A stretch of 64,000 nucleotides of DNA from Modestobacter versicolor (lineage in GTDB: Bacteria > Actinomycetota > Actinomycetes > Mycobacteriales > Geodermatophilaceae): contig NZ_JACIBU010000001.1 of assembly GCF_014195485.1 (NCBI RefSeq), forward strand, positions 186,001-250,000. Reading direction: 5' to 3'. Below are positions 31,955 to 48,099 of this stretch, piece by piece; the stretch's first letter is position 1, and each line of letters starts with the position of its first letter. A program made the position numbers and the translations under genes. Under the pieces are notes generated by a model. The model was not told the DNA's origin. It saw only the letters and a list, made by a program, of their open reading frames with translations, and searched no databases.

Positions 31955-31971
31955 CCTCCGCGTGGGGGACG

Positions 31972-34900
31972 ATGTCAGCCGTGCCCGTCCGCATCTGCCT
32001 GCTCGGCCCGGTCGCCGTGCTCGGCGAGGACGGGCAGCCGGTCGACGTCGGCGGCCCGCGCGCCCGTGCCCTGCTGGCCCGGCTGGCGGTCGAGCCCGGC
32101 CGGGTCGTCGGCCTGGACACGCTGATCGAGGCGGTCTGGGACGCCGACCCGCCGGCCGCCCCGGGCAACGCCGTCCAGGCGCTGGTGTCCAGGCTGCGCC
32201 GGGCGCTGCCCGCGGTGCCGCTGCGCGCCCAGGCGCACGGGTACCTGCTCGACCTGCCCGCCGACGCGGTCGACGCCGGCCGGTTCGAGGCGCTGGTCGC
32301 CCGCGCGCGGGAGGACCGCGACCCCGACCGCGCGCTGGCGCTGCTGCGGGAGGCGGAGCAGCTGTGGCGGGGGCCGGCGCTGGCCGACCTGCGCGACCTG
32401 GCGTTCACCGGCCCGCTGGCCGCCCGCTGGGACGAGCTGCGGCTCACCGCGGCCGAGCAGCGGCTCGGCGGCGAGCTGGAGCGCGGCCGCGCGGCAGCGG
32501 CGCTCGCCGAGCTGGAGGAGCTGGTCGCCGCGCACCCGCTGCGCGAGCCGCTCTGCCTGCTGCAGGTGCGGGCCCTGGCCCGGCTCGGCCGCTCGGCGGA
32601 GGCGCTGGCCGCCTACGAGCGCTGCCGCGACCGGCTGGCCGACGAGCTGGGCATGGACCCGTCCGCGGCGCTGCAGGCCGAGCACCTCGCCGTCCTGCGC
32701 GGTGGGGCATCGGCACCACCCCGGGATGGCGGCCCGCTGCGCACCCCGCTGACCAGCTTCCGCGGCCGCGACGGCGAGCTGGAGGCGGTCGCCGGGCTGC
32801 TCGACGGCGGGCGGCTGGTCACCCTGCTGGGCCCGGGCGGCGCGGGCAAGACCCGGCTGGCGCTGGAGGCCGCGCACCGGCGCCGGGCCGACGTGCCGGA
32901 CGGCGTGTGGTGGGTCGAGCTGGCCCCGGTCGCCGACGCCCGGCTGCTGCCCGCGGCGGTGCTGTCCGCGGTTGGGCAGCGCGAGGGCACGTCGCTGGAG
33001 CGGGTGCCCACCCTGGTCGAGGCCAGCGCCCGGCTGCAGGAGACGTTCGCCGACCGGCGGGCGCTGCTGGTGCTCGACAACTGCGAGCACCTGGTCGCGG
33101 CGGTCGCCGCGTTCACCGACGACCTGCTCGGGCACTGCCCCCGGCTGCAGGTGCTCACCACCAGCCGCGAGCCGCTCGGGATCCCGGGGGAGGCGGTGCT
33201 GCCGGTCGGCCCGCTGGAGGTGCCCGCTGCCGACGACGAGGCCGCCGCCGGCTCACCGGTGGTCCAGCTGTTCGCCGACCGGGCCGCGGCGGTGCGCCCG
33301 GACTTCGCCGTCACGCCGGCGACGCTGCCGGCCGTGCTGGAGGTCTGCCGCCGGCTGGACGGCATGCCGCTGGCGCTCGAGCTCGCCGCGGCCCGGCTGC
33401 GCACCCTGGGCATCGGGCAGATCGCCGCCCGGCTGGACGACCGGTTCTCGCTGCTCACCGGGGGCAGTCGGGTGGCGCTCCCGCGGCACCAGACGCTGCG
33501 CGCGGTGGTCGAGTGGAGCTGGGAGGCCCTGGACGAGCGCGAGCAGGAGGTCGCCCGGCGGCTGTCGGTCTTCGCCGGCGGGGCCACGCTGGACACCGCC
33601 GAGCAGGTCTGCGGCGACCCGGGCTGGGGCACCGGAGCGGTGCTGGACGCGATCACCGGGCTGGTCGAGAAGTCGATGCTGCTCGCGGTCGCCGAGGACG
33701 GCCAGGACGGCGGTGTCCGGTACCGGATGCTGGAGACGATCCGCGCCTACGCCGGCGAGCAGCTCACCGCGGCGGGGGAGCGCAGCCGGGTCGAGGCCGC
33801 CCAGACCGCGTGGTGCCTGCAGCTGGTCGACGAGCTGGACCCGCAGCTGCGCGGCACCGGCCAGCTGGCCGCGCTGCAGCGGATGCACGCCGAGCACGAC
33901 GGGCTGCTGGCGGTGCTGCAGCGCTGCGTGGCCGCCGGGGACGGGGAGGCCGCCGTCCACCTGGGCGCCCGGCTCAGCTGGTACTGGCTGCTCACCGGCC
34001 GGCAGGTGGCCGCGGGCCGCTGGCTGACCGAGGTGATCAGCGTGCCCGGCGGGTCACCGGCGCTGCGCGCGATGTGCGAGGCGTTCAGCGCCATGGGCCG
34101 GGCGGAGGGCGGTGACTGGCAGTCGGCGGTGCCGGCGCTGCGGGCGATCGGCGACCTGCCGCCCGAGCGCACCTACCGGTCGACCGAGCCGCTGGGGGCG
34201 CTGGCCTGGGCGATCGCGATGGTGTTCTCCGGCGACTTCCGCTCGCTCGAGGCGCTCCTGCTGCTCGAGGGCCACCCGGACCGGTGGGTGGTGGCCGCGG
34301 CGCGGGCCATCCGGGCGCAGCTCGCGGAGAACCTCGGCGAGCTGCACGGCATGGCCGAGGACCTGCGGGAGGCGCACGCCGAGTTCGTGCGGCTCGGCGA
34401 CCGCTGGGGCCGCTCCTTCACCGCGGCCGCGCTCGGCGGGCTGAGCTCGGTCGACGGCGACGCGGCGGGCGCGATCGGGTGGCTCACGGAGGCCGTCGAG
34501 CTGTCCGAGGAGCTCGGCACCACCGACGACACCCCGATGATGCGGATCCGGCTGGCGATGGCGTACGCGCTCGCCGGTGACCTCGTGCGGGCGGATGCCG
34601 AGGTGGCGCAGGTGCTCGCCGAGCTGAGCCGCGACGGGGGTCTGCACCTGGCCGGCGCCGAGGCCGCGGCCGGCGCGTTCGCCCTGCTGGCCGGCCGGCT
34701 GGACGACGCCGAGCGGTGGCACCGCCTGGCGCTGGAGCACGTGCGGGCCACCAGCGGTGGGCCGCCGCAGATCGAGGCGATGGTGCTCGCCGGCACGACC
34801 GGGGTGCTGGCCGCCCGCGCCGAACGGGAGCCCGCGGCGGCATCCGATCTGATCACCGAGGCGTACCGGCTCCTGGAGCCGGCGCTGCGGCTGGCCGTGG

Positions 34901-35226
34901 AGGGGGCTGGTGACATGCCGGTCGCGGCGAACGTGGTGCTGGCCCGGGCCGCGGTCGTCGGGGTCGACGGTGACCACGAGCAGGCCGCCCGCCTGCTGGG
35001 CATGGCGACCGCGGTCCGCGGCCGGCGCGACCTCGGCGACCTGGGGGCGCGGGTCACCGAGCAGCGGCTGCGCGCCGCGCTGGGCGACCCGGAGTTCGAC
35101 CGGCTGCGGGCCGCCGGTGAGGCCGTCCCCCGCGACGAGGTGCTCGCCGGGCTGGGGGTCGACCCCACCGGCGGCTGGCGCCCGGTGCCGGTGCCGGCCG
35201 ACGGGGGTCAGACCCGGCGCCGGTAG
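31972..35226 (+). CDS. AfsR/SARP-type regulator with BTAD, NB-ARC ATPase and TPR-like region
   Basis: 1084 residues. Residues 1 to about 95 form an OmpR-like winged helix (VRICLLGPVAVLGEDG to ALPAVPLRAQAHGYLLDLP). The bacterial transcriptional activation domain runs from about 96 to 245 (DAGRFEALVARAREDRDPDRALALLREAEQLW to ELGMDPSAAL). An ATPase domain follows with P-loop LLGPGGAGKTRLAL near residue 285 and Walker B RALLVLDNCEHL near 363. The last 450 residues are helical repeats. Such proteins activate secondary-metabolite, export or stress genes by binding direct repeats with about 11-bp spacing. Five repeats of that spacing occur upstream of the convergent ABC exporter genes. The 3' end overlaps the exporter permease gene by 19 bases. 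Confidence 0.88.
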   Translation: MSAVPVRICLLGPVAVLGEDGQPVDVGGPRARALLARLAVEPGRVVGLDTLIEAVWDADPPAAPGNAVQALVSRLRRALPAVPLRAQAHGYLLDLPADAVDAGRFEALVARAREDRDPDRALALLREAEQLWRGPALADLRDLAFTGPLAARWDELRLTAAEQRLGGELERGRAAAALAELEELVAAHPLREPLCLLQVRALARLGRSAEALAAYERCRDRLADELGMDPSAALQAEHLAVLRGGASAPPRDGGPLRTPLTSFRGRDGELEAVAGLLDGGRLVTLLGPGGAGKTRLALEAAHRRRADVPDGVWWVELAPVADARLLPAAVLSAVGQREGTSLERVPTLVEASARLQETFADRRALLVLDNCEHLVAAVAAFTDDLLGHCPRLQVLTTSREPLGIPGEAVLPVGPLEVPAADDEAAAGSPVVQLFADRAAAVRPDFAVTPATLPAVLEVCRRLDGMPLALELAAARLRTLGIGQIAARLDDRFSLLTGGSRVALPRHQTLRAVVEWSWEALDEREQEVARRLSVFAGGATLDTAEQVCGDPGWGTGAVLDAITGLVEKSMLLAVAEDGQDGGVRYRMLETIRAYAGEQLTAAGERSRVEAAQTAWCLQLVDELDPQLRGTGQLAALQRMHAEHDGLLAVLQRCVAAGDGEAAVHLGARLSWYWLLTGRQVAAGRWLTEVISVPGGSPALRAMCEAFSAMGRAEGGDWQSAVPALRAIGDLPPERTYRSTEPLGALAWAIAMVFSGDFRSLEALLLLEGHPDRWVVAAARAIRAQLAENLGELHGMAEDLREAHAEFVRLGDRWGRSFTAAALGGLSSVDGDAAGAIGWLTEAVELSEELGTTDDTPMMRIRLAMAYALAGDLVRADAEVAQVLAELSRDGGLHLAGAEAAAGAFALLAGRLDDAERWHRLALEHVRATSGGPPQIEAMVLAGTTGVLAARAEREPAAASDLITEAYRLLEPALRLAVEGAGDMPVAANVVLARAAVVGVDGDHEQAARLLGMATAVRGRRDLGDLGARVTEQRLRAALGDPEFDRLRAAGEAVPRDEVLAGLGVDPTGGWRPVPVPADGGQTRRR

Positions 35227-36026
35227 GCCCGCATCGCCAGCGGCACGAAGACCACCAGCAGGACCGCGCCCCAGCCCGCCGTCCAGGCCAGCGGCTCGGC
35301 CACCGGCCCCCCGAGCAGCAGTCCCCGGACCGTGTCGATCAGGTGGGTCACCGGGTTGTTGCGGGTGAAGCCCTGCAGCCAGCCGGGCAGGGTGTCGACC
35401 GCGACCAGCGCCGAGCTGCCGAAGGTGAGCGGGAACATCGCCAGGAAGCCGATGCCCTGCACCGCGCCGGCCGAGCGGACCGTGAGCCCGATCCAGACGA
35501 ACACCCAGGACAGGCACATGGCGAAGGCGATGGCCACGACCACGGCCAGCAGCAGGGCGGGGAGGCCCTCCGTCGTCCGGAAGCCGAGCGCCGTGACGAA
35601 GGCCAGCAGCACGACGATCGCCGTCAGGTAGCGGACGACGTCGGCGACCACCGCGCCGACCAGCGGGGCCGATCGGGCGATCGGCAGGCTGCGGAACCGG
35701 TCGAACACGCCCTTGGTGATGTCGTTGTTCAGCGCGACCCCGATGCCGCCGGTGGCGAACATCAGCGTCTGCGCCAGGATGCCGGGCACCAGGTAGGTCA
35801 GGTAGTCGCGCCAGTCGCCGGCGATCGCGCCGCCGAAGACGAACACGAACAGCACCGTGAAGATGATCGGCTGCAGGCTGACGTCCATCAGCGCCTCGGG
35901 CTGGTGGCGGATCTTCACCACGTTGCGCCAGGCGAGCGTGAGCGACTGCTGCACCGCGGAGCTGCCAGTGGCCCGGGCGGCCGGGCGCGGTGCGGTGGTC
36001 GGGGGTGCGGCGGTGGCGGTGGTCAT
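35208..36026 (-). CDS. ABC-2 type exporter permease (DrrB-like)
   Basis: 272 residues with six membrane helices. A polar Ala/Thr/Pro-rich N-terminus precedes QSLTLAWRNVVKIRHQPEALMDVSLQPIIFTVLFVFVFGGAI, the standard ABC-2 entry; YLVPGILAQTLMFATGGIGVALNNDITKGVFDRFRSLPIARSAPL holds the cytoplasmic loop that couples to the ATPase. The DrrB family exports antibiotics or lipids (doxorubicin, phthiocerol). ATG overlaps the stop of the ATPase gene (ATGA), so the two are co-translated. The cargo is not evident; no biosynthesis genes are adjacent. Confidence 0.88.
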   Translation of the reverse strand: MTTATAAPPTTAPRPAARATGSSAVQQSLTLAWRNVVKIRHQPEALMDVSLQPIIFTVLFVFVFGGAIAGDWRDYLTYLVPGILAQTLMFATGGIGVALNNDITKGVFDRFRSLPIARSAPLVGAVVADVVRYLTAIVVLLAFVTALGFRTTEGLPALLLAVVVAIAFAMCLSWVFVWIGLTVRSAGAVQGIGFLAMFPLTFGSSALVAVDTLPGWLQGFTRNNPVTHLIDTVRGLLLGGPVAEPLAWTAGWGAVLLVVFVPLAMRAYRRRV

Positions 36027-36997
36027 GCCAGGGCCTCCTGTCGGGTGTCGGTGGGGGTCTCGTCCTCGGCGCCGTGGCCGGTGAGGGCGAAGAAGACGTC
36101 GTCCAGGCTGGGCAGCCGGACGGCGAGCTCGGAGACGGCGATGCCCTGGGTGGTGAGCCGGTCCAGGACGGCGCCGAGCAGCGCCTCGCTGGGCACGGGC
36201 ACCGAGGAGGTGCCGCGGGAGTCGGTGGTGGGCACCGCGCCGCTGACCTGCTCCAGCACCTCGAGCACGCGGGGGGAGTCGGCGCGGTCGCGGGGGCGGA
36301 CGGTGAGCGTCTGCGCGCCGGTGCGCGCCTTGAGCTCGTCGCTGGTGCCGCGGGCCACCACCCTGCCGGAGTCGAAGACGACGATGTCGTCGGCGAGCTC
36401 GTCGGCCTCCTCCAGGTACTGGGTGGTGAGCAGCACGGTGGTGCCGTCGTCGACCAGGCCGCGGACGGTGTCCCACACCCCGTTGCGGCTGCGCGGGTCC
36501 AGCCCGGTGGTCGGCTCGTCGAGGAAGAGCACCCGCGGGCGGTTGACCAGGCTGGCCGCGAGGTCCAGCCGGCGCCGCATGCCACCGGAGTAGGTCTTCG
36601 CCGAGCGGCCGCCGGCGTCGGTGAGGCTGAACTGGGCGAGCAGCTCGGTGGCCCGGGCGTGCGCCTCGGGCCGGGAGAGCCCGAGCAGCCGGCCGATCAT
36701 CACCAGGTTCTGCCGGCCGGTGAGGTCCTCGTCGACCGAGGCGTACTGGCCGGTCAGGCCGATCAGCTCGCGCACCCGGTCGGGCTCGGTGGCGACGTCG
36801 TGGCCGCAGATCCGGGCGCTGCCGGAGTCGGCGCGGAGCAGGGTGGCCAGCACCCGGACCGCGGTCGTCTTGCCGGCGCCGTTGGGGCCGAGGACGCCGA
36901 GGACCGTGCCGGCCGGGGCGGACAGGTCGACCCCGGCCAGCGCGCGGGTGTCGCCGTAGCTGAGCTCGAGGCCGGTGGCCTCGATCGTGTTCTCCAT
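36023..36997 (-). CDS. ABC exporter ATPase (DrrA-like)
   Basis: 324 residues. Walker A GPNGAGKTT at about residues 38-46, signature YSGGMRRRLDLAASL near 140, Walker B VLFLDEPTTGLDP near 160, H-loop replaced by Gln in LLTTQYLEEADELADDI, as is common in DrrA proteins. The last 100 residues form the DrrA C-terminal regulatory domain that tethers the permease. The ATG at 36997 has AGGAGG upstream. Five tandem repeats lie 45 to 97 bases before the start. With the permease it makes a two-gene exporter. Confidence 0.92.
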   Translation of the reverse strand: MENTIEATGLELSYGDTRALAGVDLSAPAGTVLGVLGPNGAGKTTAVRVLATLLRADSGSARICGHDVATEPDRVRELIGLTGQYASVDEDLTGRQNLVMIGRLLGLSRPEAHARATELLAQFSLTDAGGRSAKTYSGGMRRRLDLAASLVNRPRVLFLDEPTTGLDPRSRNGVWDTVRGLVDDGTTVLLTTQYLEEADELADDIVVFDSGRVVARGTSDELKARTGAQTLTVRPRDRADSPRVLEVLEQVSGAVPTTDSRGTSSVPVPSEALLGAVLDRLTTQGIAVSELAVRLPSLDDVFFALTGHGAEDETPTDTRQEALA

Positions 36998-37041
36998 CGG
37001 TCCTCCTGGACGTCGGTGTGTGCACCGCAGAGGGTCGGCGG

Positions 37042-37094
37042 CGGCGCTGACGCGGCACCGACGGCGCACTGACGCCCGCTGACACGCGCTGACG
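37042..37094 (-). repeat. Five tandem 10-11 bp repeats, candidate SARP binding site
   Basis: Read on the minus strand from 37094 downward, five consecutive units begin CGTCAGCG, TGTCAGCG, CGTCAGTG, CGTCGGTG and CGTCAGCG, at intervals of 10, 10, 11 and 11 bases (consensus YGTCRGYG). They face the DrrA gene and end 45 bases before its ATG. SARP regulators of the AfsR/ActII-ORF4 type bind heptamer direct repeats at about 11 bp, and such a regulator gene is the next one convergent. On the other side the site lies close to the GTG of the zinc-finger gene at 37110. Confidence 0.65.
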
Positions 37095-37109
37095 GGGCAC
37101 GATGGGCCG

Positions 37110-37442
37110 GTGACGGCAGCACAGGACCTGGCCCGGACCCGGGCGGAGACCCTCGCGCAGATCGCGGCGCTCACCGCGGAGTTCGACGAGGTCGTGGCGG
37201 CATCGGCGTCGTCCAACGCCGACGACGAGCACGACCCGGAGGGGGCGACGATCGCCTTCGAGCGGCAGCAGGTCGCCGCGCTGCTGGACCAGGCGCGGCA
37301 GCGGCTGGTCGACGTCGACGACGCGCTGGCCCGCGCGGCGGCGGGCGACTACGGCCGGTGTGCGGAGTGCGGCCGGGAGATCGCCGCCGAACGGCTCGCC
37401 GCCCGGCCGCAGGCCCGCACCTGCATCGACTGCGCGCGCTGA
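37110..37442 (+). CDS. TraR/DksA-type zinc-finger protein
   Basis: 110 residues. An N-terminal coiled-coil-like part (RTRAETLAQIAALTAEFDEVV, then IAFERQQVAALLDQARQRLVDVDDALARAA) ends in CAECGREIAAERLAARPQARTCIDC, a four-cysteine finger C-x2-C...C-x2-C of the DksA/TraR type. Relatives bind in the RNA polymerase secondary channel (DksA, TraR), or act in other ways in actinobacteria (RbpA is different). The GTG lies 6 bases after CACGAT. Its stop TGA overlaps the ATG of the peptidase gene, so the two are coupled although unrelated in function. Confidence 0.85.
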   Translation: MTAAQDLARTRAETLAQIAALTAEFDEVVAASASSNADDEHDPEGATIAFERQQVAALLDQARQRLVDVDDALARAAAGDYGRCAECGREIAAERLAARPQARTCIDCAR

Positions 37443-38386
37443 TGCCGCCGCAGGTCGAGCCGTACGAGACCGGGATGCTCGACGTCGGCGACGGGCACTC
37501 GCTGTACTGGGAGGTCCTCGGCAACCCCGACGGAAAGCCGGCGGTGATGCTGCACGGCGGCCCCGGGGCCGGTGGCACCCCGGGCATGCGGCGGGCGTTC
37601 GACCCGGCGCACTGGCGGATCGTGATCTTCGACCAGCGCAACAGCGGGCGGAGCACCCCCTACGCCGGTGACCCGGAGGTCGACCTGTCGGCCAACACGA
37701 CCCCGCACCTGGTCGCCGACGTCGAGCGGCTGCGCGAGCACCTGGGCATCGACCGCTGGCTGGTGTGGGGCGGGTCGTGGGGCGTGACGCTGGGGCTGGC
37801 CTACGCGCAGGCGCACCCGGAGCGGGTGACCGAGCTGGTGCTGGTCGCGATCACCTCCGGCGACCGGCGGGAGACCGACTGGATCACCCGGGACATGGGC
37901 CGGGTGTTCCCGCGCGAGTGGGAGCGGTTCCGGGACGGCGTGCCCGCGGCCGAGCCGGACGGCGACCTGGCCGCCGCCTACAGCCGGCTGCTGCACGACC
38001 CGGACCCCGCCGTCCGCGCGAAGGCCGCGCAGGACTGGTGCGACTGGGAGGACGTGCACATCTCCCTCGCCCCGGACGCCGCACCGCGGTTGTCGCTACG
38101 GCCGCCGGAGTTCCAGCTCTGCTTCGCCCGGGTGGTCACCCACTACTGGGCCCACGGCTGCTTCCTGGCGCCGGGCCAGCTGCTCCGGGATGCCGGCCGG
38201 CTGGCCGGCATCCCGGGGGTGATGGTGCACGGCCGCTACGACGTCAGCGGCCCGCTGGAGACCGCGTGGCAGCTGCACCGGGCGTGGCCGGGCAGCGAGC
38301 TGGTCGTCATCGGCGACGCCGGGCACTCGAGCGCGAGCATGGGCCCGGCCATCGGCGCGGCGATCGAGCGGTTCGCCGGCCGCTGA
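37442..38386 (+). CDS. Proline iminopeptidase (S33 alpha/beta hydrolase)
   Basis: 314 residues, the usual size. It removes N-terminal proline from peptides. GMLDVGDGHSLYWEVLGNPDGKPAVMLHGGPGAG with the HGGPG oxyanion motif, FDQRNSGRS, nucleophile Ser112 in GGSWG, and the C-terminal HGRYDVSGP with catalytic Asp and DAGHS with catalytic His. The family's prolyl-binding residues near the Glu of the cap (WEDVHISL region) are present. The ATG overlaps the stop of the zinc-finger gene. In mammals and bacteria the substrate is Pro-Xaa; here it would serve peptide or proline turnover, together with the proline dehydrogenase elsewhere in the window. Confidence 0.93.
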   Translation: MPPQVEPYETGMLDVGDGHSLYWEVLGNPDGKPAVMLHGGPGAGGTPGMRRAFDPAHWRIVIFDQRNSGRSTPYAGDPEVDLSANTTPHLVADVERLREHLGIDRWLVWGGSWGVTLGLAYAQAHPERVTELVLVAITSGDRRETDWITRDMGRVFPREWERFRDGVPAAEPDGDLAAAYSRLLHDPDPAVRAKAAQDWCDWEDVHISLAPDAAPRLSLRPPEFQLCFARVVTHYWAHGCFLAPGQLLRDAGRLAGIPGVMVHGRYDVSGPLETAWQLHRAWPGSELVVIGDAGHSSASMGPAIGAAIERFAGR

Positions 38387-38480: not shown

Positions 38481-39416
38481 TCAGCTGACGTAGCGGCGGG
38501 CGTTCGAGTTCTTCTGCGCGTCCTCGAGCGCGGCGAACCGGGCCTCGGCGTGCGGCGGGAGCACCCGGCGCTCGCGCAGCACCCACGGCATCCCGCGGAC
38601 GGCGGCGAGCAGCCCGCGCGCGGTGACCCGGTCGCGCGGGACGGTGCGCAGCAGGTGCACGGTGCGCCGGAGCGCCGGCCGGACCGGGCGGCGCAGCCAC
38701 GTCGTCCAGAGGGTGTTGCGGATGCCGTCGGCCCGGCGTTTGTGCGGGTCGCGGGCGGTGCTGGCCTGGTGGTGGATCGTCAGGCTGGGCAGGTAGCAGA
38801 GCTCCCACCCGCGGGCGGCGAGGTCGCCGGCCATCAGCTCCTCCTCACCGCCCAGCCACAGCCGGTCGTTGAAGCCGCCGACCTCGTCGAAGGCGTCGCG
38901 GCGCAGCACGCTCGCCCCGGCCAGGAAGCTGCCCAGCGCTGGGCCGGGGAGCCAGTCGGCGCCGACGACGGGTGAGTCGCGCAGCTCGGCGACGATCGGG
39001 TCCTCGACCCCGCCGGGCTCGACCAGGATCCGCGCGGTGAGGACGGCGAGCCGGGGGTGGGCGTCCAGCGCGTCCGCGGCGGTGCGCAGCGAGCCCGGGT
39101 CCCACCAGGTGTCGTCGTCGCAGAAGGCGACGTAGGGGGTGTCCAGCCGGGCGACGCCGAGGTTGCGGCCGACCGCGCCCAGGTTGGTGGGGCTGGCGAT
39201 CAGCTCGACCCAGGGGTGCTGCTCGCGGACGGCGGCCGCGGTGCCGTCGGTGGAGCCGTTGTCGACCACCACGACGTGCGGCTGCTCGGGGAGCTGGCGC
39301 AGCCGGGAGAGCGCCAGCAGCAGCTCGTCCCGGCGCTGGTGGGTGATCACGACGACCGCGACCCGGGGGTCGGGCCCGGAGCCGGTGGTGACCGGTTCGG
39401 CCAGCTCGCTGGTCAC
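38481..39416 (-). CDS. Family 2 glycosyltransferase
   Basis: 311 residues. The GT-A domain starts VAVVVITHQRRDELLLALSRL, has VVVDNGSTDGTAAAVRE and the metal/nucleotide DXD-type motif FCDDDTWW, then LGGEEELMAGDLAARGWELCYLPSLTIHHQ as acceptor and catalytic region. No membrane helix is predicted, so it works at the cytoplasmic face. The GTG overlaps the stop of the upstream GT2 gene (GTGA). The two GT2 proteins share about the same layout and many motifs, and are likely an old duplication. The sugar donor and acceptor are unknown. Confidence 0.88.
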   Translation of the reverse strand: MTSELAEPVTTGSGPDPRVAVVVITHQRRDELLLALSRLRQLPEQPHVVVVDNGSTDGTAAAVREQHPWVELIASPTNLGAVGRNLGVARLDTPYVAFCDDDTWWDPGSLRTAADALDAHPRLAVLTARILVEPGGVEDPIVAELRDSPVVGADWLPGPALGSFLAGASVLRRDAFDEVGGFNDRLWLGGEEELMAGDLAARGWELCYLPSLTIHHQASTARDPHKRRADGIRNTLWTTWLRRPVRPALRRTVHLLRTVPRDRVTARGLLAAVRGMPWVLRERRVLPPHAEARFAALEDAQKNSNARRYVS

Positions 39417-40270
39417 CGGGACAGCTCCCGGACGCCGGCCATCACCGGGCGGGGCAGCACCCGGCGGCGGCGCAGGGCGGCGGGCACCCGGGGGACGGCG
39501 CCGACCAGCCCGCGCCAGCCGGGACGACCGGCCCCGGCGGCCCGGACCAGCTGGCCGAGCAGGTCGCGCAGCGGGTAGCGCATCAGCGCGGTGAGCACCC
39601 GGCTGCGCCAGATCCCGGCCTGGCGGACCGTGTTCGGGTCGCGGCTCGTCGACGGGTGGTGGTGGACGGTGACCTCATCGACGTAGGCCAGCCCCCAGCC
39701 GGCGGCGGCGAGGTCGAGGGCCAGCCGCTCCTCCTCGCCGGGGAAGCGGACGACCGGGTCGAAGCCGCCGACGGCGGTGAAGGCCTCAGTTCGCACCAGG
39801 GCGGCGCAGGCGACGAAGCCGAGCAGCGAGGGGCCGGGCAGGTCGGGATCGGTGCCGAGCGGGCTGGCGGCCATCTCGGTGCAGACCGGGTCGAGCTCCT
39901 CCTCGGTGCCGACCAGGATCCGGGCGGCGAGCAGGCCCAGCCGCGGGTGCGCGCGCATGATCTCCGCGGCGCGGGCCAGGTCGCCAGGCGCCCACCAGGA
40001 GTCGTCGTCGGTGAAGGCCACGAAGGGGGTGCCGGCCCGGGCGGTGCCCAGGGTGCGGGCGACGGCGCCGGCGTTGCGGTCCAGCGGGACGACGGTGACG
40101 TCGGGGTGGGCGGCGCGGACCGCCTCGACCGTGCCGTCGGTGGAGGCGTTGTCGACAAGGACGACGGGGGCCTCGTGCCGGGGCAGGCTGGCGAGCAGGT
40201 CGGCGCGGCGGTTGCGACTGGCGACCACGCAGGTCACCGCCGGGCGCGGTGGGTGGAGCTCAGTGATCAC
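39413..40270 (-). CDS. Family 2 glycosyltransferase
   Basis: 285 residues from the GTG at 40270. AVTCVVASRNRRADLLASLPRH, VVLVDNASTDGTVEAVRAA, FTDDDSWWAPG (DXD-type) and PGEEERLALDLAAAGWGLAYVDEVTVHHH are the GT2 motifs, matching the downstream GT2 protein closely. The GTG at 40270 has CAGGCT 6 bases upstream on the minus strand (40282 down to 40277); an ATG at 40288 would add six residues and lie upstream of that hexamer's start site, so I prefer GTG. A 61-bp gap separates it from the toroid protein gene, so the two GT2 genes may have their own promoter. Confidence 0.86.
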   Translation of the reverse strand: MITELHPPRPAVTCVVASRNRRADLLASLPRHEAPVVLVDNASTDGTVEAVRAAHPDVTVVPLDRNAGAVARTLGTARAGTPFVAFTDDDSWWAPGDLARAAEIMRAHPRLGLLAARILVGTEEELDPVCTEMAASPLGTDPDLPGPSLLGFVACAALVRTEAFTAVGGFDPVVRFPGEEERLALDLAAAGWGLAYVDEVTVHHHPSTSRDPNTVRQAGIWRSRVLTALMRYPLRDLLGQLVRAAGAGRPGWRGLVGAVPRVPAALRRRRVLPRPVMAGVRELSR

Positions 40271-40331
40271 CCCTGCAGCCTGCCCCATCCGTGCTCCAGT
40301 CAACCCAGGAGCTGCCGCACACCCCAGCTGT

Positions 40332-41405
40332 TCACCGGCCGGCGCCGGGTTCGGCGACCGGGGCGGCCGGCCGGTCGAGCGCCGCTGGGTCGGCGAACAG
40401 CGCGGCGGCCGGGCCGGTGCCGGCGATCGCGTCGGCGGCCAGCACCACGGCGGCCGCCGTCCAGGTGGTGCGCTCGACCGGCCAGCGGGCGTCGTCGGCG
40501 TAGACCAGGCCGGTCCAGTAGGAGCCGTCGTCGGCGCGCAGGTGCTGCATGGACGCCAGCTGCTCGGTGGCGTCGTCGACCCGGCCGACGGCGGCGAGGG
40601 CCAGGGCGAGCTCGCAGGTCTCCGCCCCGGTCACCCACGGCCGGTCGGCGACGCAGCGCACGCCCAGCCCGGGGACGACGAAGGTGTCCCAGCCCGCCGC
40701 GAGCCGCTCGGTGGCCGCCGGGCCGGTGACCGCGCCGGCCAGCACCGGGTAGTACCAGTCCATCGAGTACCGCGACCGGTCGGCGAACGCGGCGGGGTCC
40801 TCGCGCAGGGTGCGGCCGAGGTCGGCGGCGGCGAGGTCCCAGTCCGGCTGCTCGTGGCCGACCAGCCCGGCGAGGGCGATGCCGGCCCGCAGCGCCTGGT
40901 ACAGGCTCGCGTTGCCGGTGAGCAGCGCGGTGTCGTCGGGGGTGCCGTCGGGGCGCAGCGCCCAGCTGATCGCGCCGCTGGGCAGCTGCATGGCCGTCAC
41001 CAGGTCCAGCGCGCGGCGCACGGCCGGCCAGAGCCGGTCGACCAGCTGCTCGTCGCCGGTGCACAGCCAGGAGTGCCAGACCCCGACGGCGAGGTAGCCG
41101 GCGTGGTTGCTCTCCACGGCCGGGGCGGTGACCGCGCCGTCGCGGTACTCCGCGGCCCACGAGCCGTCGGGGCGCTGCCGGCCGGCCAGCCAGGTGTAGG
41201 CGGCGCGGGCCCGATCGTGCCGGCCGCCGACGTCGAGGGCCATCGCGGCCTCGACGGAGTCCCAGGCGTCCAGCTGCCCGCCGCGGAACCAGGGCAGGGC
41301 TCCGTCGGCGGCCTGCTCGGCGGCGATCGCGGCGACGGTCTGGTTCAGCTGGTCGGCGCTGAGCACCCCCGGCACCTCGGGCAGCGCCGGGACGAGCTCA
41401 GGCAC
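40332..41405 (-). CDS. Alpha/alpha-toroid (prenyltransferase/terpene-cyclase-like) protein
   Basis: 357 residues, mostly alpha helical with repeated QxxDGxW-type turns: EQAADGALPWF, GRQRPDGSWAAE, LPSGAISWALR and LRADDGSYWTGL. These are the repeats of the terpenoid-cyclase/prenyltransferase toroid and of related glycosidase-like barrels. Neither the DxDD acid motif of squalene cyclases nor zinc ligands of protein prenyltransferases are visible. It may be a glycan-acting hydrolase, a lipid-carrier enzyme or a non-catalytic toroid. The GTG start overlaps the end of the methyltransferase gene by 8 bases, so it is co-translated with it and the GT4 gene. The real function is unknown. Confidence 0.7.
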   Translation of the reverse strand: MPELVPALPEVPGVLSADQLNQTVAAIAAEQAADGALPWFRGGQLDAWDSVEAAMALDVGGRHDRARAAYTWLAGRQRPDGSWAAEYRDGAVTAPAVESNHAGYLAVGVWHSWLCTGDEQLVDRLWPAVRRALDLVTAMQLPSGAISWALRPDGTPDDTALLTGNASLYQALRAGIALAGLVGHEQPDWDLAAADLGRTLREDPAAFADRSRYSMDWYYPVLAGAVTGPAATERLAAGWDTFVVPGLGVRCVADRPWVTGAETCELALALAAVGRVDDATEQLASMQHLRADDGSYWTGLVYADDARWPVERTTWTAAAVVLAADAIAGTGPAAALFADPAALDRPAAPVAEPGAGR

Positions 41406-42237
41406 TCGCCAGGGCCTGGCCGGGGTCGGCCGGCTGCGCCGCCGTGGCCGCCGTGGCCGCCGTGGCCGCCGTGGCCGCCGTGGCCGCCGTGGCCGCCGTG
41501 GCCGCCGTGGCCGCTTGCGCCGCCGGGGTCGCCGGCTTGTCGGCGTAGATGACGAAGCTCTTGCCGAGCAACGGGTCGAGCAGCCGCTCCGCGGTGCGGG
41601 TCAGCCACGGCCGCCGGGTGAGGTCCCAGACGAGCAGCCGGTGGTAGGCGCGCACGGCAGCGGTGTCCCGGTCGACCCCCACGGCGCACTTGAGCCACCA
41701 GTACGGCGCGTGCAGGGCGTGCGCGTGGTGGGTGTCGGTGGGCTGCAGCCCGACGGTCGCGAGCCGCTCCCACAGCTGGTCGCCGCGGTAGATGCGGATG
41801 TGCCCGCCCTCGTTCGCGTGGTACGCGTCGGACAGCGCCCAGCAGATCCGCTCCGGGCCGTACCGGGGCACGGTCACCGCCACCCGGCCGCCGGGGCGGA
41901 GCACCCGGGCGATCTCGGCGAACGCGGCCCGGTCGTCGGGGATGTGCTCCAGGACCTCCGACGCGATGACCCGGTCGACGCTGGCGTCGGGCACCGGCAG
42001 CGCGCGCAGGTCGCCGCGGGCCACGGCGGCCGAGGCGCCCGCGGGTGCCTCGCCGGCTGCCGCGATGGCGCCGAGCCACTCTTGGGTGGTGGCCACCTCG
42101 TGCTGACCCCAGTCGACGGCGAGCACCGAGGCGCCGCGGCGGTAGGCCTCGAAGGCGTGCCGGCCCTCGCCGCAGCCCAGGTCCAGGACCCGCATGCCGG
42201 CCCGGACGTCGAGCAGGTCGTAGTCGACGGTCAGCAC
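41398..42237 (-). CDS. Class I SAM methyltransferase with low-complexity Ala/Thr tail
   Basis: 279 residues. MRVLDLGCGEGRHAFEAYRRGASVLAVDWG contains methyltransferase motif I (DLGCGEG), with DASVDRVIASEVLEHIPDDRAAFAEIARVLRPGGRVAVTVPR as motifs II-III of the UbiE/MenG-like group. The acceptor is unknown; the context (GT4 upstream, toroid and GT2 downstream) suggests a sugar or lipid-linked glycan. The C-terminus carries a run of Ala-Ala-Thr encoded by a 9-bp tandem repeat (41441-41512) before QPADPGQALASA. The GTG overlaps the end of the GT4 gene by 7 bases; an alternative start is not needed. Confidence 0.83.
   Translation of the reverse strand: MLTVDYDLLDVRAGMRVLDLGCGEGRHAFEAYRRGASVLAVDWGQHEVATTQEWLGAIAAAGEAPAGASAAVARGDLRALPVPDASVDRVIASEVLEHIPDDRAAFAEIARVLRPGGRVAVTVPRYGPERICWALSDAYHANEGGHIRIYRGDQLWERLATVGLQPTDTHHAHALHAPYWWLKCAVGVDRDTAAVRAYHRLLVWDLTRRPWLTRTAERLLDPLLGKSFVIYADKPATPAAQAATAATAATAATAATAATAATAATAAQPADPGQALASA
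41441..41512. repeat. Eight copies of a 9-bp tandem repeat
   Basis: GCCGTGGCC is repeated exactly eight times from 41441. Because the unit is 9 bases, copy number changes keep the methyltransferase frame and lengthen or shorten an Ala/Ala/Thr tail. Perfect short repeats of this type expand and contract by slippage. Confidence 0.95.
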
Positions 42238-43559
42238 GCGGCGCTCCCGGTGGCCCGGCCCGTGCCAGGTCCGGTGCCGCCGTTCGCTTCGCCGGTGCTG
42301 CCGGTGCTGCCGGTCGCCGCCCGGCGGTCGAGGACCTCCGCGTACCACTCGGCGGTGCGCTCGGCCGTGCGCCGCCAGGTGTAGGCGCCCAGCACCCGGG
42401 CCCGGCCGGCCCGGCCCAGCTGCTCCTGCAGGGAGGGGTGGTCCAGCACCAGCTGCAGGGCCTCGGCCAACCGGCCGACGTCGCCGGCCGGCACCTGCAC
42501 CCCGGCGTGCGAGCCGACGACCTCCGGCAGGGCACCGGCGTCGGTCGTCACCAGCGGGGTGCCGCACGCCATGGCCTCGACGGCGGGCAGCGAGAAGCCC
42601 TCGTAGAGCGAGGGGATCGCGACCACGGTGGCGGTCTGCAGCAGCCGCACCAGCTCGTCGGTGGGCACCGGGCCGGTGAAGCGGACGGCGTCGCCGAGCC
42701 CCAGCCGGTCCAGCGCCGTGGCCGCCGGCCCGCCCGGGCGGGCGGTGCCGACGACGGTCAGCCGGACGTCGCGCTCGGTGCGCAGCTTCGCCACCGCCTC
42801 CAGCAGGTGCACCAGCCCCTTGAGCGGCACGTCGGCGCTGGTGGTGACCACGATGGAGGCCGGCTCCCGCACGGCGTCGTCCGCCGGGGGCCGGAAGACG
42901 TCCGGGTCGATGCCCACCGGGATGACCTGCACCGCGGAGCCGGGCACGCCCATGTGCCGGGCGATGTCGCGGCGGGAGCTCTCCGAGACGGTGGTGATCC
43001 CGTCCAGCCGCTGCGCGACCCGGGCCTGCATGGCGGTGAAGGCGTACCAGCGGCGCAGCGTCAGCCGCTTGCGCAGGCCGGCGGCCGCGGCCAGCTCCAG
43101 GTCGCGGTCGATGGCGATCGGGTGGTGCACCGTCGCGACGGTCGGCAGCCCGCGGCGGCGCAGCTGCAGCAGGCCGTAGCCCAGCGACTGGTTGTCGTGG
43201 ACCAGGTCGAACTCGCCGGTGCGCCGGCCGAGCAGCCGGGCCGCCCGCAGGGTGAAGGTCAGCGGCTCGGGGAACCCGGCGGTGCACATGGTCGCCCACT
43301 CTGCGACGTCGACCAGGCTCCGGAACTCGCTGGGACGCGGCGTCCGGAACGGGTCGGGCTCCCGGTAGAGGTCCAGGCTGGGCACCCGCGTCAGCGGGAC
43401 GCCCTCGTCGAGCTCGGGGTAGGGCTGGCCGCTCAGCACCTCGACCCGGTGCCCCAGCTCGCGCAGCTCGCGGGACAGCGCCCGGACGTAGACGCCCTGG
43501 CCACCGCCGTGGGGCTTGCTCCGGTAGGACAGCAGTGCCACCCGCAGCGACCGTCCCAT
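42231..43559 (-). CDS. Family 4 glycosyltransferase (GT-B)
   Basis: 442 residues, GT-B fold of two Rossmann domains. LRVALLSYRSKPHGGGQGVYVRALSRELRELGHRVEVLSG is the N-terminal acceptor domain with the glycine loop. VIPVGIDPDVFRP, ADVPLKGLVHLLEAVAKL, LTVVGTARPGG and PSLYEGFSLPAVEAMACGTPLVTTDAGALPEVVG (EGFSLPxxEAMACG) form the donor-sugar domain. A Gly/Ser/Thr-rich tail ends the protein. It would transfer a nucleotide sugar, retaining configuration, at the cytoplasmic face. The ATG at 43559 is 6 bases from TAGAGT on the minus strand. It is the first gene of the cluster GT4-methyltransferase-toroid, followed by two GT2 genes. Confidence 0.9.
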   Translation of the reverse strand: MGRSLRVALLSYRSKPHGGGQGVYVRALSRELRELGHRVEVLSGQPYPELDEGVPLTRVPSLDLYREPDPFRTPRPSEFRSLVDVAEWATMCTAGFPEPLTFTLRAARLLGRRTGEFDLVHDNQSLGYGLLQLRRRGLPTVATVHHPIAIDRDLELAAAAGLRKRLTLRRWYAFTAMQARVAQRLDGITTVSESSRRDIARHMGVPGSAVQVIPVGIDPDVFRPPADDAVREPASIVVTTSADVPLKGLVHLLEAVAKLRTERDVRLTVVGTARPGGPAATALDRLGLGDAVRFTGPVPTDELVRLLQTATVVAIPSLYEGFSLPAVEAMACGTPLVTTDAGALPEVVGSHAGVQVPAGDVGRLAEALQLVLDHPSLQEQLGRAGRARVLGAYTWRRTAERTAEWYAEVLDRRAATGSTGSTGEANGGTGPGTGRATGSAAC

Positions 43560-44022: not shown

Positions 44023-44781
44023 ATGATCACCACTGCTCGGCGCCGTCAGCTGGGACTGCTCTCCGCCGGCCTGCTGGGCGCCGCGGCCCTCGCCGGCTGC
44101 GGCTCCGAGGTGGCGGGTGACGCCTCGGAGGGCACCCCGTCCAGCTCGGCCGGGTCCTCGTCGGCGGGTGGGAGCACCGGCGCCCTCGACGACGTCGAGG
44201 ACCTCTCGGCCGGGCTGCTGCCCGCCGACGCGTTCGGCGCCGGCGCCCAGGCGACCCCGATCACCGCCGACCAGCTCGAGGGTCAGACCCAGCTGGGGAT
44301 CGGTACGGAGGACCTCACGATCACCCCGGAGAGCTGTGCCCCCGCGGTGAAGTCGGTGCAGCCGGGCCTGGAGGACATCGAGGGCCTCGGCGCGCAGACG
44401 GTGACGGTCGGCTCCGGTGCGACGGTGCAGGTCCTCGCCTCGGGCGAGGGCATCACCGAGGGGGTGGACCAGCTGGCCGGCACGGTGGACTCCTGCCCCG
44501 AGGCGACGATCAGCTCCCCGGAGATCGGCACCGCCACCGTCACCTTCGCCGCGCTGGAGGTGCCCGACGTGGGCGACGGGTCGGCCGGGCTGACCATGAC
44601 CGTGTCGATCCCCGGACCCGGTGGCCAGCCGGTGACCGTGCCGGTGCTGCTCGGCATGGCGCGGGACGGTGACCGGCTGGTCAGCCTGACCTCGACCGAC
44701 CCGACCGGTGCGCTCGACGCAGCCGCGTTCGCCGACCTGTTCCAGCAGGCCTACGACCACCAGGCCGATGCGCTCGACTGA
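44023..44781 (+). CDS. Lipoprotein of unknown function
   Basis: 252 residues. A signal peptide (MITTARRRQLGLLSAGLLGAA) ends in the lipobox LAGC, with Cys26 as the lipid-bearing residue. A Ser/Gly/Ala-rich linker (about residues 37-52) follows, then a domain of about 200 residues with two cysteines (C105, C158 region) and no catalytic motif. It looks like the LpqN/LpqT-like or DUF5642-type family of actinobacterial surface lipoproteins, which I cannot settle. The protein would sit on the outer face of the membrane. The ATG is 6 bases after TAGGGT (44011-44016). A long hairpin follows the stop. Confidence 0.8.
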   Translation: MITTARRRQLGLLSAGLLGAAALAGCGSEVAGDASEGTPSSSAGSSSAGGSTGALDDVEDLSAGLLPADAFGAGAQATPITADQLEGQTQLGIGTEDLTITPESCAPAVKSVQPGLEDIEGLGAQTVTVGSGATVQVLASGEGITEGVDQLAGTVDSCPEATISSPEIGTATVTFAALEVPDVGDGSAGLTMTVSIPGPGGQPVTVPVLLGMARDGDRLVSLTSTDPTGALDAAAFADLFQQAYDHQADALD

Positions 44782-44788
44782 GCCGGCG

Positions 44789-44838
44789 GGCCGGTGGCGG
44801 GGCGGGGTGCGCATGTCCCGACCCTGCCCCCACCGGCC
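44789..44838 (+). terminator. Long hairpin after the lipoprotein gene
   Basis: GGCCGGTGG at 44789-44797 pairs with 44830-44838, and GGGGC with GCCCC inside it, interrupted by one unpaired base. It begins 7 bases after the stop. No T-run. Confidence 0.55.
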
Positions 44839-44933
44839 ACCCCGGTGCTGCCCGCCGTCCACAGGCGGGGGCTCCGTCCACAACCTCGGCTGAGCCCTCC
44901 CGCCGCGGCGGCCGCCGCAGCAGCGTCTCCGGC

Positions 44934-46013
44934 ATGCCCGATGCCGACCCGCCGCTCACCGTCCGCCTCACCGACCCCGGGGACGTCGCCGCCGCGCTGC
45001 CCCACCTGCTCGGCTTCCGCCCGGAGGAGTCGCTGGTGGTGGTGAGCCTGCGCGGCGCCACCGGGCTGCGGCTCGGTCTCACCGCACGGGTCGACCTGCC
45101 CGCGCCCGAGCACCGGGAGCTCGTGCTTCGCGGGCTGGTCCGGTCCCTGGCCACCGACCGGCCCGACGCCGTGCTGCTCCTCGTGGTGAGCGAGGACGAG
45201 GACGACTCGGCCGTCCCGCCGGAGCGCCCCTGGGCCGGTCGCCTCCCCGAACTGCCGCACCGGCCACTGGTGCACGAGGCGGTGCTGGCCTTCGACGGCG
45301 CGGGGATCGCCGTGCGCGAGGCGCTGCTGGTGCGGCGGGGTCGGTGGTGGTCCTACGACTGCACCGGCGGGTGCTGCCTGCCGCACGCCGGCACACCGCT
45401 GCCGGCCGGCACCAGCGAGCTCGCCGCGGCCGCCGCGTTGACCGGTCAGGTCGTCGAGCGCGACCGGGCGGCGCTGGTCCGGCGGATCGCCCCGGTCGGC
45501 TTCCTGGCCGCCGCCGGGATGGCCCAGGCGTGCGACGAGGTCGGCGACGACCTGGCCCGCCGCGCCGCCGAGCTGGGCTGGGACGAGGTGGTCGAGGAGG
45601 GCTGGGCCGCGGTGCAGGCTGCCGTCGAGGCCGCCGGGCCCGGCTCGGTCGAGCGGTTGACCGACCGGCAGGTCGCCCGGCTGGCGTGGGCGCTGCGCGA
45701 CGTCGACCTGCGCGACCGGGCCCTGGGCCTGGCGCTGAGCCGCTCGGCCGCCGCCGCCGAGGCGGTGTGGACCGAGCTGACCCGGCGGGCGCCGGCACCG
45801 CTGGACGCGGCGCCGGCGACCCTGCTGGCGGTGACCGCCTGGGTGCGCGGTGACGGGGCGCTGGCCAACGTGGCGCTGGAGCGGGCGCTGGGCAGCGAGC
45901 CCAGCTACAGCTTCGCCGTCCTCCTCCGCTCGGCGCTGGACGCGTGCCTGCGACCGGCCGAGATCCGCCGGCTCATCCGGGAGGCGGGTGCGCCCCGGGA
46001 CGCCCGGCGGTGA
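44934..46013 (+). CDS. DUF4192 protein
   Basis: 359 residues, in line with the actinobacterial DUF4192 family. The hallmark start is LTVRLTDPGDVAAALPHLLGFRPEESLVVVSLRG; further on come LLVVSEDEDDSA and RGRWWSYDCTGGCCLPHAGTPLP, the family's Cys-containing motif. Function is unknown. No signal peptide, so it is cytoplasmic. The ATG lies 7 bases after CAGCGT (44921-44926). Two loosely DnaA-box-like words in the 150-bp gap before it are not convincing. It ends 4 bases before the convergent S9 peptidase gene. Confidence 0.85.
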   Translation: MPDADPPLTVRLTDPGDVAAALPHLLGFRPEESLVVVSLRGATGLRLGLTARVDLPAPEHRELVLRGLVRSLATDRPDAVLLLVVSEDEDDSAVPPERPWAGRLPELPHRPLVHEAVLAFDGAGIAVREALLVRRGRWWSYDCTGGCCLPHAGTPLPAGTSELAAAAALTGQVVERDRAALVRRIAPVGFLAAAGMAQACDEVGDDLARRAAELGWDEVVEEGWAAVQAAVEAAGPGSVERLTDRQVARLAWALRDVDLRDRALGLALSRSAAAAEAVWTELTRRAPAPLDAAPATLLAVTAWVRGDGALANVALERALGSEPSYSFAVLLRSALDACLRPAEIRRLIREAGAPRDARR

Positions 46014-46017
46014 CCGG

Positions 46018-48099
46018 TCACAGCAGCTCGGGGCGCTGCCACTCCTCGCCGAGCACGTGCTCGGCCAGGAACGCGATGACCGTCTCGTACCAGACCTGGG
46101 CGTTCCCGGGGGTGAGCACCCAGTGGTTCTCGTCCGGGAAGTAGAGGAACTTCGACGGGACGCCGCGCTTCTGCAGGTCGTACCAGAGCCGCAGGCCCTC
46201 GCCGATCGGCACGCGGTAGTCCTTGTCGCCGTGGATGACCAGCATCGGCGTCCGGATGGCGTCGGCGTACCGGTGCGGCGAGTTCTGGTCGTACCGCTTG
46301 GGCTCGGTCAGCGGGTCGCCGAACTCGCGCTGCCAGTACCAGGCCGCGTCGGTCGTGCCGCTGAAGCCGTCCAGGTGCCAGAGGCTTGCGTGGGTCACGA
46401 TCGCCTTGAACCGGTCGGTCTGGGTGGCGACCCAGTTGGCCATGTAGCCGCCGAACGACCCGCCCATCGCCGCGGTCCGGGTCTCGTCGATCTCCGGCAG
46501 CTGCTCCGCGGCGTCCACGGCGGCCATCAGGTCGGTGTAGGGCTCGGCGCCCCACTCGCCCCAGCCACGGCGCACGAAGTCCTGGCCGAACCCCTGCGAC
46601 AGCCCGGGGTTGGGCAGGAGCACCGCGTACCCCCGGGCGGCGAGCACCCAGGGCGTCCAGCGCCACGACCACGAGTTCCAGCTCATCAGCGGGCCACCGT
46701 GGATCCACAGCAGCAGCGGGGCGGGCTGCTCCGCGCTGGCCCCCTCCGGCAGCACCAGCCAGGACTGCACCCGGCTGCCGTCGGCGGCGGTGGCGTCCAG
46801 CTCGCGCAACGTGCCGGGCAGGCTGCTGATCGTGCCCGGGTTGGGCAGCGGCGCCGGGTCCTGCCCGGTGGCGTGCGGGTCGAGCCGCACCGGCACCGGC
46901 GGGGTGTCGTAGCCCGAGCGCAGCGCGTACAGGGCGCTGCCGTCCCGGGCGACCTGGAGGTCGCTGTAGGCGCCCTGGTCGGTCAGCCGCACCGGGGTGC
47001 CGCCGTCGAGGTCCACCCGGAACAGCGCGTGCCGGCCGTCGTCGTCGGCCAGGAAGTACACCGCGTCGCCGTCCGCCGCGAACTGCGGAGCGCTCGGCCA
47101 GCGGTCGAAGCCCGGGGTCAGCTCACGGGTCTCCGCGCTCGCCAGGTCGACCAGCAGCAGCGTGTAGTCCGGCGGCTCGGCGAACGAGGACCGGGACTCG
47201 CGGACGCAGACGACCCGGCCCGAGTCGGGGGAGAAGGCGGCCGAGTGGACGTCGGCCTGCGGGTCGTCGACGAGCACCCGGGTGTCCCCGGTGGCGACCT
47301 CGACCACGACCAGCCGCGAGCGACGGCCGGCGGGACCGTCGGGCACGTCCTCGCTGCGGACCAGGGACCGGCCGTCGGGGGACAGCGCGACGTCGTCACC
47401 GGCGCCGAGCGGCGGCCCGGCGTCCGGGGTGAGGTCCCGCCACTCCGGGGCGTCGGCCGTCGCGCCCGGGCCCGGCTCCGCCGGCAGCTGCCCCACCCAG
47501 TAGACGTGCGGCACGGCGGGGCCCAGGTCGTGGTCCCAGAAGCGCACCGGGTAGCTCTCGTGCAGCACCGCGCTGACGCCGGCGTCCTTACGGGCGGCCC
47601 GGCGCTCCTTGTCGGCGTCCGCGTCGGCGGCGCCCGGCATCGTGGAGGCCACCACCGCGAGGTCGCCGGTGTCGGCGGCGACCGCGACCCCGCTGATGCC
47701 GTGCGGCCGCTGCAGCACCAGGCGCGCCTCGCCGCCTCCGGCGGGCAGGCTCCACAGCGACCCGGTGGGCTCGCCACCGTCCTTGCCGGCGTCGGGGTCC
47801 GGTCGGGTCGAGGTGAACAGCAGGTCCCCGTGCGGGGTGAACTGCGGGGCGGACTCGCCTGCGGCCCCGCGGGTGAGCCGGCGTGGCTCCCGCTGCCCGG
47901 CCGGGTCGACCTCCCACAGCGCCGACTGCCACTTCTTGCCCTCGGCGTCGAGGGTGGCCACCGAGGTGACCAGCCGGGTGCCGTCGGGGGAGAGGGCCAG
48001 ACCGCCGAGCCGCGGCAGGGCGACGAAGTCGGCCAGCCGGTGGAAGGGGCTGGGCGGGGGCGTCTCGACGGTCTCGTCGGCAACGGGGGAGTCGCTCAC
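46018..48099 (-). CDS. S9-family prolyl oligopeptidase-like peptidase
   Basis: 693 residues. Residues 1 to about 430 form a seven-bladed propeller with repeated SPDGTRLVTS-like blades (LALSPDGTRLVTSVATLD, VALSPDGRSLVRSED, AAFSPDSGRVVCVRES). The C-terminal alpha/beta hydrolase domain has nucleophile Ser548 in GGSFGGYM, Asp627 in HGDKDYRVP and His659 in DENHW. This is the acylaminoacyl-peptidase/DPP branch, which trims short peptides. No signal peptide, so it is cytoplasmic. The GTG at 48099 has AGAGAGAAGG upstream. A perfect 10-bp dyad lies over the probable -35 region (48149-48179). Confidence 0.93.
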   Translation of the reverse strand: MSDSPVADETVETPPPSPFHRLADFVALPRLGGLALSPDGTRLVTSVATLDAEGKKWQSALWEVDPAGQREPRRLTRGAAGESAPQFTPHGDLLFTSTRPDPDAGKDGGEPTGSLWSLPAGGGEARLVLQRPHGISGVAVAADTGDLAVVASTMPGAADADADKERRAARKDAGVSAVLHESYPVRFWDHDLGPAVPHVYWVGQLPAEPGPGATADAPEWRDLTPDAGPPLGAGDDVALSPDGRSLVRSEDVPDGPAGRRSRLVVVEVATGDTRVLVDDPQADVHSAAFSPDSGRVVCVRESRSSFAEPPDYTLLLVDLASAETRELTPGFDRWPSAPQFAADGDAVYFLADDDGRHALFRVDLDGGTPVRLTDQGAYSDLQVARDGSALYALRSGYDTPPVPVRLDPHATGQDPAPLPNPGTISSLPGTLRELDATAADGSRVQSWLVLPEGASAEQPAPLLLWIHGGPLMSWNSWSWRWTPWVLAARGYAVLLPNPGLSQGFGQDFVRRGWGEWGAEPYTDLMAAVDAAEQLPEIDETRTAAMGGSFGGYMANWVATQTDRFKAIVTHASLWHLDGFSGTTDAAWYWQREFGDPLTEPKRYDQNSPHRYADAIRTPMLVIHGDKDYRVPIGEGLRLWYDLQKRGVPSKFLYFPDENHWVLTPGNAQVWYETVIAFLAEHVLGEEWQRPELL

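Follow-up and report, generated by a model that had tools for sequence, protein, structure and literature searches.

A predicted 3-O-methylmannose polysaccharide (MMP) locus in Modestobacter versicolor and two adjacent glycosyltransferase genes probably belonging to another pathway

The DNA analysed here (the window) is a stretch of 64,000 nucleotides from the Modestobacter versicolor genome. Five consecutive genes on its minus strand, all of them open, encode the domains assigned to them in the original prediction. In the direction of transcription, these are manT (42231-43559), coding for a 442 aa homologue of the GT4 alpha-(1->4)-mannosyltransferase; pmeT3 (41398-42237), coding for a 279 aa class I SAM methyltransferase (Pfam Methyltransf_11), the putative MMP 3-O-methyltransferase; mmpH (40332-41405), coding for the toroid protein, a 357 aa (alpha/alpha)6-barrel homologue of the MMP endomannosidase; and two genes for family 2 glycosyltransferases (Pfam Glycos_transf_2), GT2a (39413-40270, 285 aa) and GT2b (38481-39416, 311 aa). 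The overlaps previously noticed are present at three of the four junctions (7, 8 and 4 bases), mmpH and GT2a being separated by a 61-base gap. The pmeT3 gene starts with a GTG codon that overlaps the manT stop, and GT2a also starts with GTG, a longer alternative from a TTG at 40303 being less likely. A 9-base tandem repeat of 10.8 copies, found by Tandem Repeats Finder within pmeT3 (41438-41534, minus strand), produces an Ala-Ala-Thr tail on the protein when read in the pmeT3 frame. A 1161-aa frame enclosing the methyltransferase was not counted as a separate gene. No match to a sigma-70-type promoter or terminator was found between 38200 and 44100, a result that is weakly informative at 77% G+C.

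A fourth gene of the MMP pathway, overlooked in the original prediction, lies outside the five-gene stretch. This gene, meT1 (31337-31954, plus strand), codes for a 205 aa homologue of the MMP 1-O-methyltransferase. It is located 8.4 kb from mmpH and 6.5 kb from GT2b, on the opposite strand, and should therefore not be co-transcribed with mmpH. Between GT2b and meT1 is a gene for an alpha/beta hydrolase (37358-38386, plus strand, Pfam Abhydrolase_1), whose start codon is uncertain. It occupies the same place in three other loci (L071, L078 and L080), and we do not consider it part of the MMP gene set.

The MMP pathway has been described in mycobacteria (Maranha et al. 2023, PMC9883506, cited throughout from its main text), whereas the original prediction knew of no described pathway with such a set of genes. 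In mycobacteria, MMP is a polysaccharide located inside the cell, for which binding of fatty-acyl chains has been proposed. Its cluster consists of four genes, encoding MeT1, MmpH, ManT and the putative 3-O-methyltransferase pMeT3 (PMC9883506). The same paper describes MmpH as an alpha-(1->4)-endomannosidase and ManT as an alpha-(1->4)-mannosyltransferase that uses acceptors of at least a trimannoside and does not extend mono- or disaccharides. The activities of MmpH, ManT and MeT1 have been demonstrated by others in mycobacteria.

Comparison with the PDB gave a single strong match for the toroid protein, 7qsj (E 3.4e-117; 54.5% identity, 181 of 332 aligned residues). This structure is named methylmannose polysaccharide hydrolase (MmpH) in the PDB. 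The GT4 protein likewise had one strong match, 7qsg (E 2.4e-128; 221 of 401 aligned residues identical, 55.1%), which carries the PDB label 'D-inositol 3-phosphate glycosyltransferase'. We infer that 7qsg is the ManT structure of PMC9883506, since ten ManT residues given in the main text of that paper fit its chain at one constant offset. For the plus-strand methyltransferase, the only strong matches were 6g7d, 6g80 and 6h40 (E 3.7e-73). When the genome from which the window derives was searched with the MeT1 homologue of a relative, a member of the 6g7d family, one strong match was obtained, and it fell inside the window. We take 6g7d, whose PDB title is just 'Methyltransferase domain protein', to be the MeT1 structure. 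The product of pmeT3 showed no match to the MeT1 structures in the PDB comparison, and this absence, together with gene order, is the basis on which we name it a putative 3-O-methyltransferase. The assignment is putative even in mycobacteria (PMC9883506).

The toroid protein had been predicted to lack the usual catalytic residues. This proved wrong, as Asp46, Asp49 and Glu262 are present and correspond to Asp47, Asp50 and Glu262 of the solved MmpH. Ten of the eleven MmpH active-site residues cited in the main text of PMC9883506 are identical; the remaining one, Phe102, is replaced by His, as in 51 of 141 homologues. In ManT, eight of the ten residues cited there are identical, including His142, Lys240, Glu313 and Glu321. 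Leu291 is replaced by Val, and the base-contact residue Asp293 by Thr, with an Asp one position further on; position 293 is variable among homologues (Asp in 96 of 152).

The loci examined yielded 154 distinct MmpH segments for comparison, 141 of which cover Asp47 and Asp50 (numbering of the solved MmpH). Glu262 and Glu265 are kept in all 154 segments and Trp315 in 141, with Tyr at this position in 13. Of the 141 segments, 140 retain Asp47, the exception being an Asn in a sequence with an in-frame stop (L040), whereas Asp50 is replaced by Asn in 17 of 141, L040 among them. The choice between Asp47 and Asp50 as the catalytic acid of MmpH was left undecided in PMC9883506. This pattern of natural variation favours Asp47, assuming that the Asn50 proteins are active, and the natural Asn50 homologues make the question left by the 2023 paper directly testable.

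The distribution of the MMP genes was determined by tblastn or genome searches. MmpH was found in 100 of 112 Geodermatophilaceae genomes, a further match (G072, E 8.5e-5) being set aside, and MeT1 in 99 at E < 1e-100 (102 at E 0.001, three of which were set aside). None of the 112 genomes had a strong MeT1 match without MmpH. In all 92 genomes with both genes on one contig, MeT1 is located downstream of mmpH, on the opposite strand. In a sample of 296 genomes from the phylum, MmpH matches at E 0.001 or better were detected in 50, including that of the window; three of these matches are weak. The best 29 of the 49 other matching genomes provided non-family loci for analysis of gene order. ManT and a methyltransferase are encoded just upstream of MmpH in all 29, with pmeT3 between manT and mmpH, and MeT1 is present within the examined DNA in 18 of the 20 longer stretches. 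Named loci chosen for MmpH (the best 80 of at least 586 confirmed relatives, some on contigs that end early) include Mycobacterium, Nocardia, Rhodococcus, Streptomyces, Actinoplanes and Geodermatophilaceae. They contain pMeT3 beside MmpH in 80 of 80 cases, ManT in 76 and MeT1 in 67; GT2a and GT2b were found in eight and seven of the 80, respectively. The survey of gene order in actinobacteria that had been proposed with the original prediction thus revealed conservation far beyond chance. A literature search combining methylmannose and Geodermatophil found no paper, and one combining MmpH and mannosidase found PMC9883506 as the sole paper, in the main text of which (supplements aside) the terms 'Geodermatophil' and 'Blastococcus' are absent.

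Judging from homology, catalytic residues and gene order, the locus very probably encodes the four-gene MMP system, made up of manT-pmeT3-mmpH and a meT1 gene convergent with them. By analogy with mycobacteria, we infer that the source bacterium makes 3-O-methylmannose polysaccharide (MMP), which would be expected to have 11-14 units. MmpH would cleave an existing MMP chain internally, and the fragments would serve as primers for new chains. ManT would add alpha-(1->4)-linked mannose from GDP-mannose, pMeT3 would methylate the added residues at O-3, and MeT1 would place the 1-O-methyl cap at the reducing end. The GT2 pair, together with a further insertion, separates mmpH from meT1.

The three core genes could also direct the synthesis of a related but different polymer, such as an acetylated methylmannan of the type known from Streptomyces griseus (PMC9883506), or one made of another sugar. 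The His at MmpH subsite position 102 and the altered base-contact position of ManT are compatible with such a polymer. However, MmpH retains the catalytic residues unchanged, as well as most of those at the subsites, and the mycobacterial enzyme for capping the reducing end of MMP, MeT1, is kept by nearly as many Geodermatophilaceae genomes as MmpH; we therefore regard a different product as unlikely. The original prediction treated the five genes as a single cluster without assignment, whose product could be a methylated surface glycan or a glycolipid. Genes packed tightly on the same strand, with overlaps at three junctions, would be expected of a single pathway, but close homologues with known activities (including those of PMC9883506) exist for the three core genes, an outcome that the original prediction had itself named as refuting it, and the GT2 pair can occur apart from the other genes, as detailed below. 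Such a pathway now appears hardly credible. What stands of the proposed product is a methylated glycan, for three of the five genes; a surface location or a glycolipid nature does not agree with the intracellular MMP of mycobacteria. The MMP pathway studied in mycobacteria is thereby extended to 100 of the 112 genomes of another actinobacterial family, which would offer further hosts for its study if MMP is made there, and the false lead of an unassigned five-gene cluster is removed.

The two GT2 genes behave differently from the MMP genes across genomes. GT2a orthologues were detected in 86 and GT2b orthologues in 78 of the 112 Geodermatophilaceae genomes. When they share a contig with mmpH, they are always near it and on the same strand (85 of 85 for GT2a, 75 of 75 for GT2b), a closeness that also fits a functional link. 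An MMP gene should always occur with MmpH and never without it, and the GT2 pair does not. Neither orthologue is present in 15 of the 100 MmpH genomes (one of them, G095, is 70% complete), five of these 15 carry a more distant GT2 homologue, and eight MmpH genomes have GT2a only. In the 99% complete genome G111, the GT2 pair lies between its usual flanking genes and no MmpH match was found; the best MeT1 match has an E value of 7e-6, and the 19 kb around the pair contain no match to ManT, pMeT3, MmpH or MeT1. GT2a and GT2b are therefore probably not MMP genes, and the original prediction probably joined two pathways present at one locus.

Assignment of the two proteins to the mycofactocin glycosyltransferase MftF (TIGR03965) was rejected, their scores being 81.2 bits (GT2a) and 70.5 bits (GT2b) against a curated cut-off of 280. 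A predicted model of GT2b (mean pLDDT 90.7) was compared with known structures using Foldseek. Among the matches listed, only generic GT-A folds appeared, including GalNAc-T2, PcManGT, WrtF and TarP (TM about 0.5-0.63, normalized to query length), and these indicate no donor or acceptor. GT2 enzymes are inverting. They should therefore produce beta-, not alpha-mannosides from GDP-alpha-mannose, which makes them poor candidates for the synthesis of alpha-mannosides. This bears on the idea that the five genes and meT1 form one extended MMP pathway, with the GT2 enzymes initiating the first chain or decorating MMP in Geodermatophilaceae. Since ManT needs at least a trimannoside, the initiating enzyme is not part of the described pathway (PMC9883506), and the constant closeness of the pair to mmpH on the same strand would suit such a role. 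However, besides the expected beta-linkage, the 15 MmpH genomes without either orthologue, the pair without MmpH in G111 and the lack of any MmpH, pMeT3 or MeT1 match in the outside loci that carry GT2 orthologues (see below) argue against an extended pathway, which we consider improbable. If anything slightly less probable is a recruitment of the pair to MMP synthesis in Geodermatophilaceae, as the missing starter or for attachment of a further sugar, that would yield an undescribed polymer.

We next examined GT2 orthologues outside the family, in ten of the 19 non-family genomes with the strongest GT2b matches. A 35-row tree contains one branch (support 100/98) that splits GT2a sequences from GT2b sequences, with outside members in both groups. 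GT2a and GT2b lie near each other in nine of the ten outside loci, in opposite directions in L111 and L117, whereas L110 has GT2b only. No MmpH, pMeT3 or MeT1 match was found in any of the ten. In seven of them (L112-L118), the GT2 orthologues are accompanied by three or more genes from a single glycan cluster, although the query genes were taken from L113, L116 and L118, which therefore match partly by construction. The genes of this cluster encode HldE-like and GmhA-like proteins, two GT9 and two GT4 glycosyltransferases, a carbamoyltransferase, an epimerase, a pyruvyltransferase and a short-chain dehydrogenase. Six of the ten loci have a gene resembling HldE or GmhA near the GT2 orthologues; L115 has no HldE, GmhA or GT9. 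Only the carbamoyltransferase accompanies them in L111, and no gene of the cluster was found near them in L109 and L110. The names of the cluster genes come from Pfam, and the matches to HldE, GmhA and heptosyltransferase do not reach the NCBIfam curated cut-offs, so that 'heptose' itself should be read as a putative sugar. A literature search on the heptose locus gave nothing on point, judged by title.

The same glycan genes also occur in Geodermatophilaceae, at another place. At 2.74 Mb, the genome of the window carries an epimerase-GT9-HldE-GmhA-GT4-GT4-GT9 set that does not include the GT2 pair. Five other loci of the family (L211-L215) show the same set without the pair, two of them from genomes lacking any GT2 homologue (G108 and G011), and a distant GT2 homologue is located inside the HldE-GmhA set of g9 (L210). 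Of the 112 genomes, 90 have both a GT2 homologue and HldE and 12 have neither, with HldE alone in six and the GT2 homologue alone in four (Fisher p 6e-9, ignoring kinship). For MmpH and HldE, both are present in 90 genomes and neither in eight, the other two counts being 10 and 4 (p 3e-5, ignoring kinship). In the 96 more complete genomes, the values are 8e-8 and 1e-3, respectively, again ignoring kinship; several absences come from incomplete genomes, and the p-values of the two pairs are set side by side here without formal comparison. From these gene arrangements, we lean towards a role of GT2a and GT2b in another glycan, one that probably contains heptose and has the rest of its genes at a different place in the genome. 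The simplest reading would be that the pair belongs to this heptose-type glycan and is located in the MMP locus in Geodermatophilaceae.

The locus shares all four genes with the mycobacterial MMP cluster meT1-mmpH-pmeT3-manT (Maranha et al. 2023, PMC9883506), as well as the order manT-pmeT3-mmpH, the convergent orientation of meT1 and the catalytic residues of MmpH and ManT. In contrast to the arrangement described there, mmpH and meT1 are separated in the window by the two GT2 genes, the alpha/beta hydrolase gene, an ABC transporter ATPase-like gene and about 4 kb more. The Ala-Ala-Thr repeat tail of pMeT3 is a further difference, and MMP is predicted here from genes. A related polymer from another actinobacterium is the acetylated MMP (AMMP) of Streptomyces griseus (cited in PMC9883506). 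In the named Streptomyces loci, which do not include S. griseus, ManT, pMeT3 and MmpH are adjacent, with meT1 1.7 to 7.2 kb away where found. The GT2 pair, for its part, resembles that of heptose-type loci in other families of the same order, where the GT2a and GT2b orthologues are near each other as in Geodermatophilaceae. As an example, L112 has the order PyrT-GT2b-GT2a-GT9-HldE-GmhA-GT4-GT4-GT9-carbamoyltransferase. Unlike in these loci, the Geodermatophilaceae pair sits between mmpH and meT1, with the heptose-type genes at another locus. The region thus appears to hold an already known pathway, here in one more host family, beside two genes that probably belong to a different pathway.

The flank of manT, one of the proposed MMP genes, holds at 44023-48099 a lipoprotein-like gene (recognized by eye, and without a Pfam match), a DUF4192 gene and an S9 peptidase-like gene (also by eye). 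These three genes adjoin manT in most of the family loci examined, and in G111, a family genome with the GT2 glycosyltransferase pair and no MmpH match, they are still found beside the pair. The spacer between GT2b and meT1 (31955-38386) contains an alpha/beta hydrolase gene, an ABC transporter ATPase-like gene recognized by eye, and about 4 kb more; this arrangement is common to two relatives' loci, L078 and L080.

Alignment of pMeT3, the putative 3-O-methyltransferase, with most relatives ends around residue 230-270. A 9-base repeat in 10.8 copies (41438-41534, minus strand) extends its C-terminus with Ala-Ala-Thr units.

Elsewhere the genome encodes a third GT2 paralogue (L108, G000:C2:391512-392324), which shares about 50% identity with GT2a and whose gene is close to one for a galactokinase-like GHMP kinase. 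Several actinobacterial families share a heptose-type glycan locus, represented by L209 in the window's own genome (G000:C1:2731000-2750500) and by L112-L118 outside its family; a limited search found no literature on this recurrent locus. Its content comprises HldE-like, GmhA-like, GT9 and GT4 genes, the first three named from NCBIfam matches below curated cut-offs, and carbamoyltransferase and pyruvyltransferase genes also occur among the loci other than L209.
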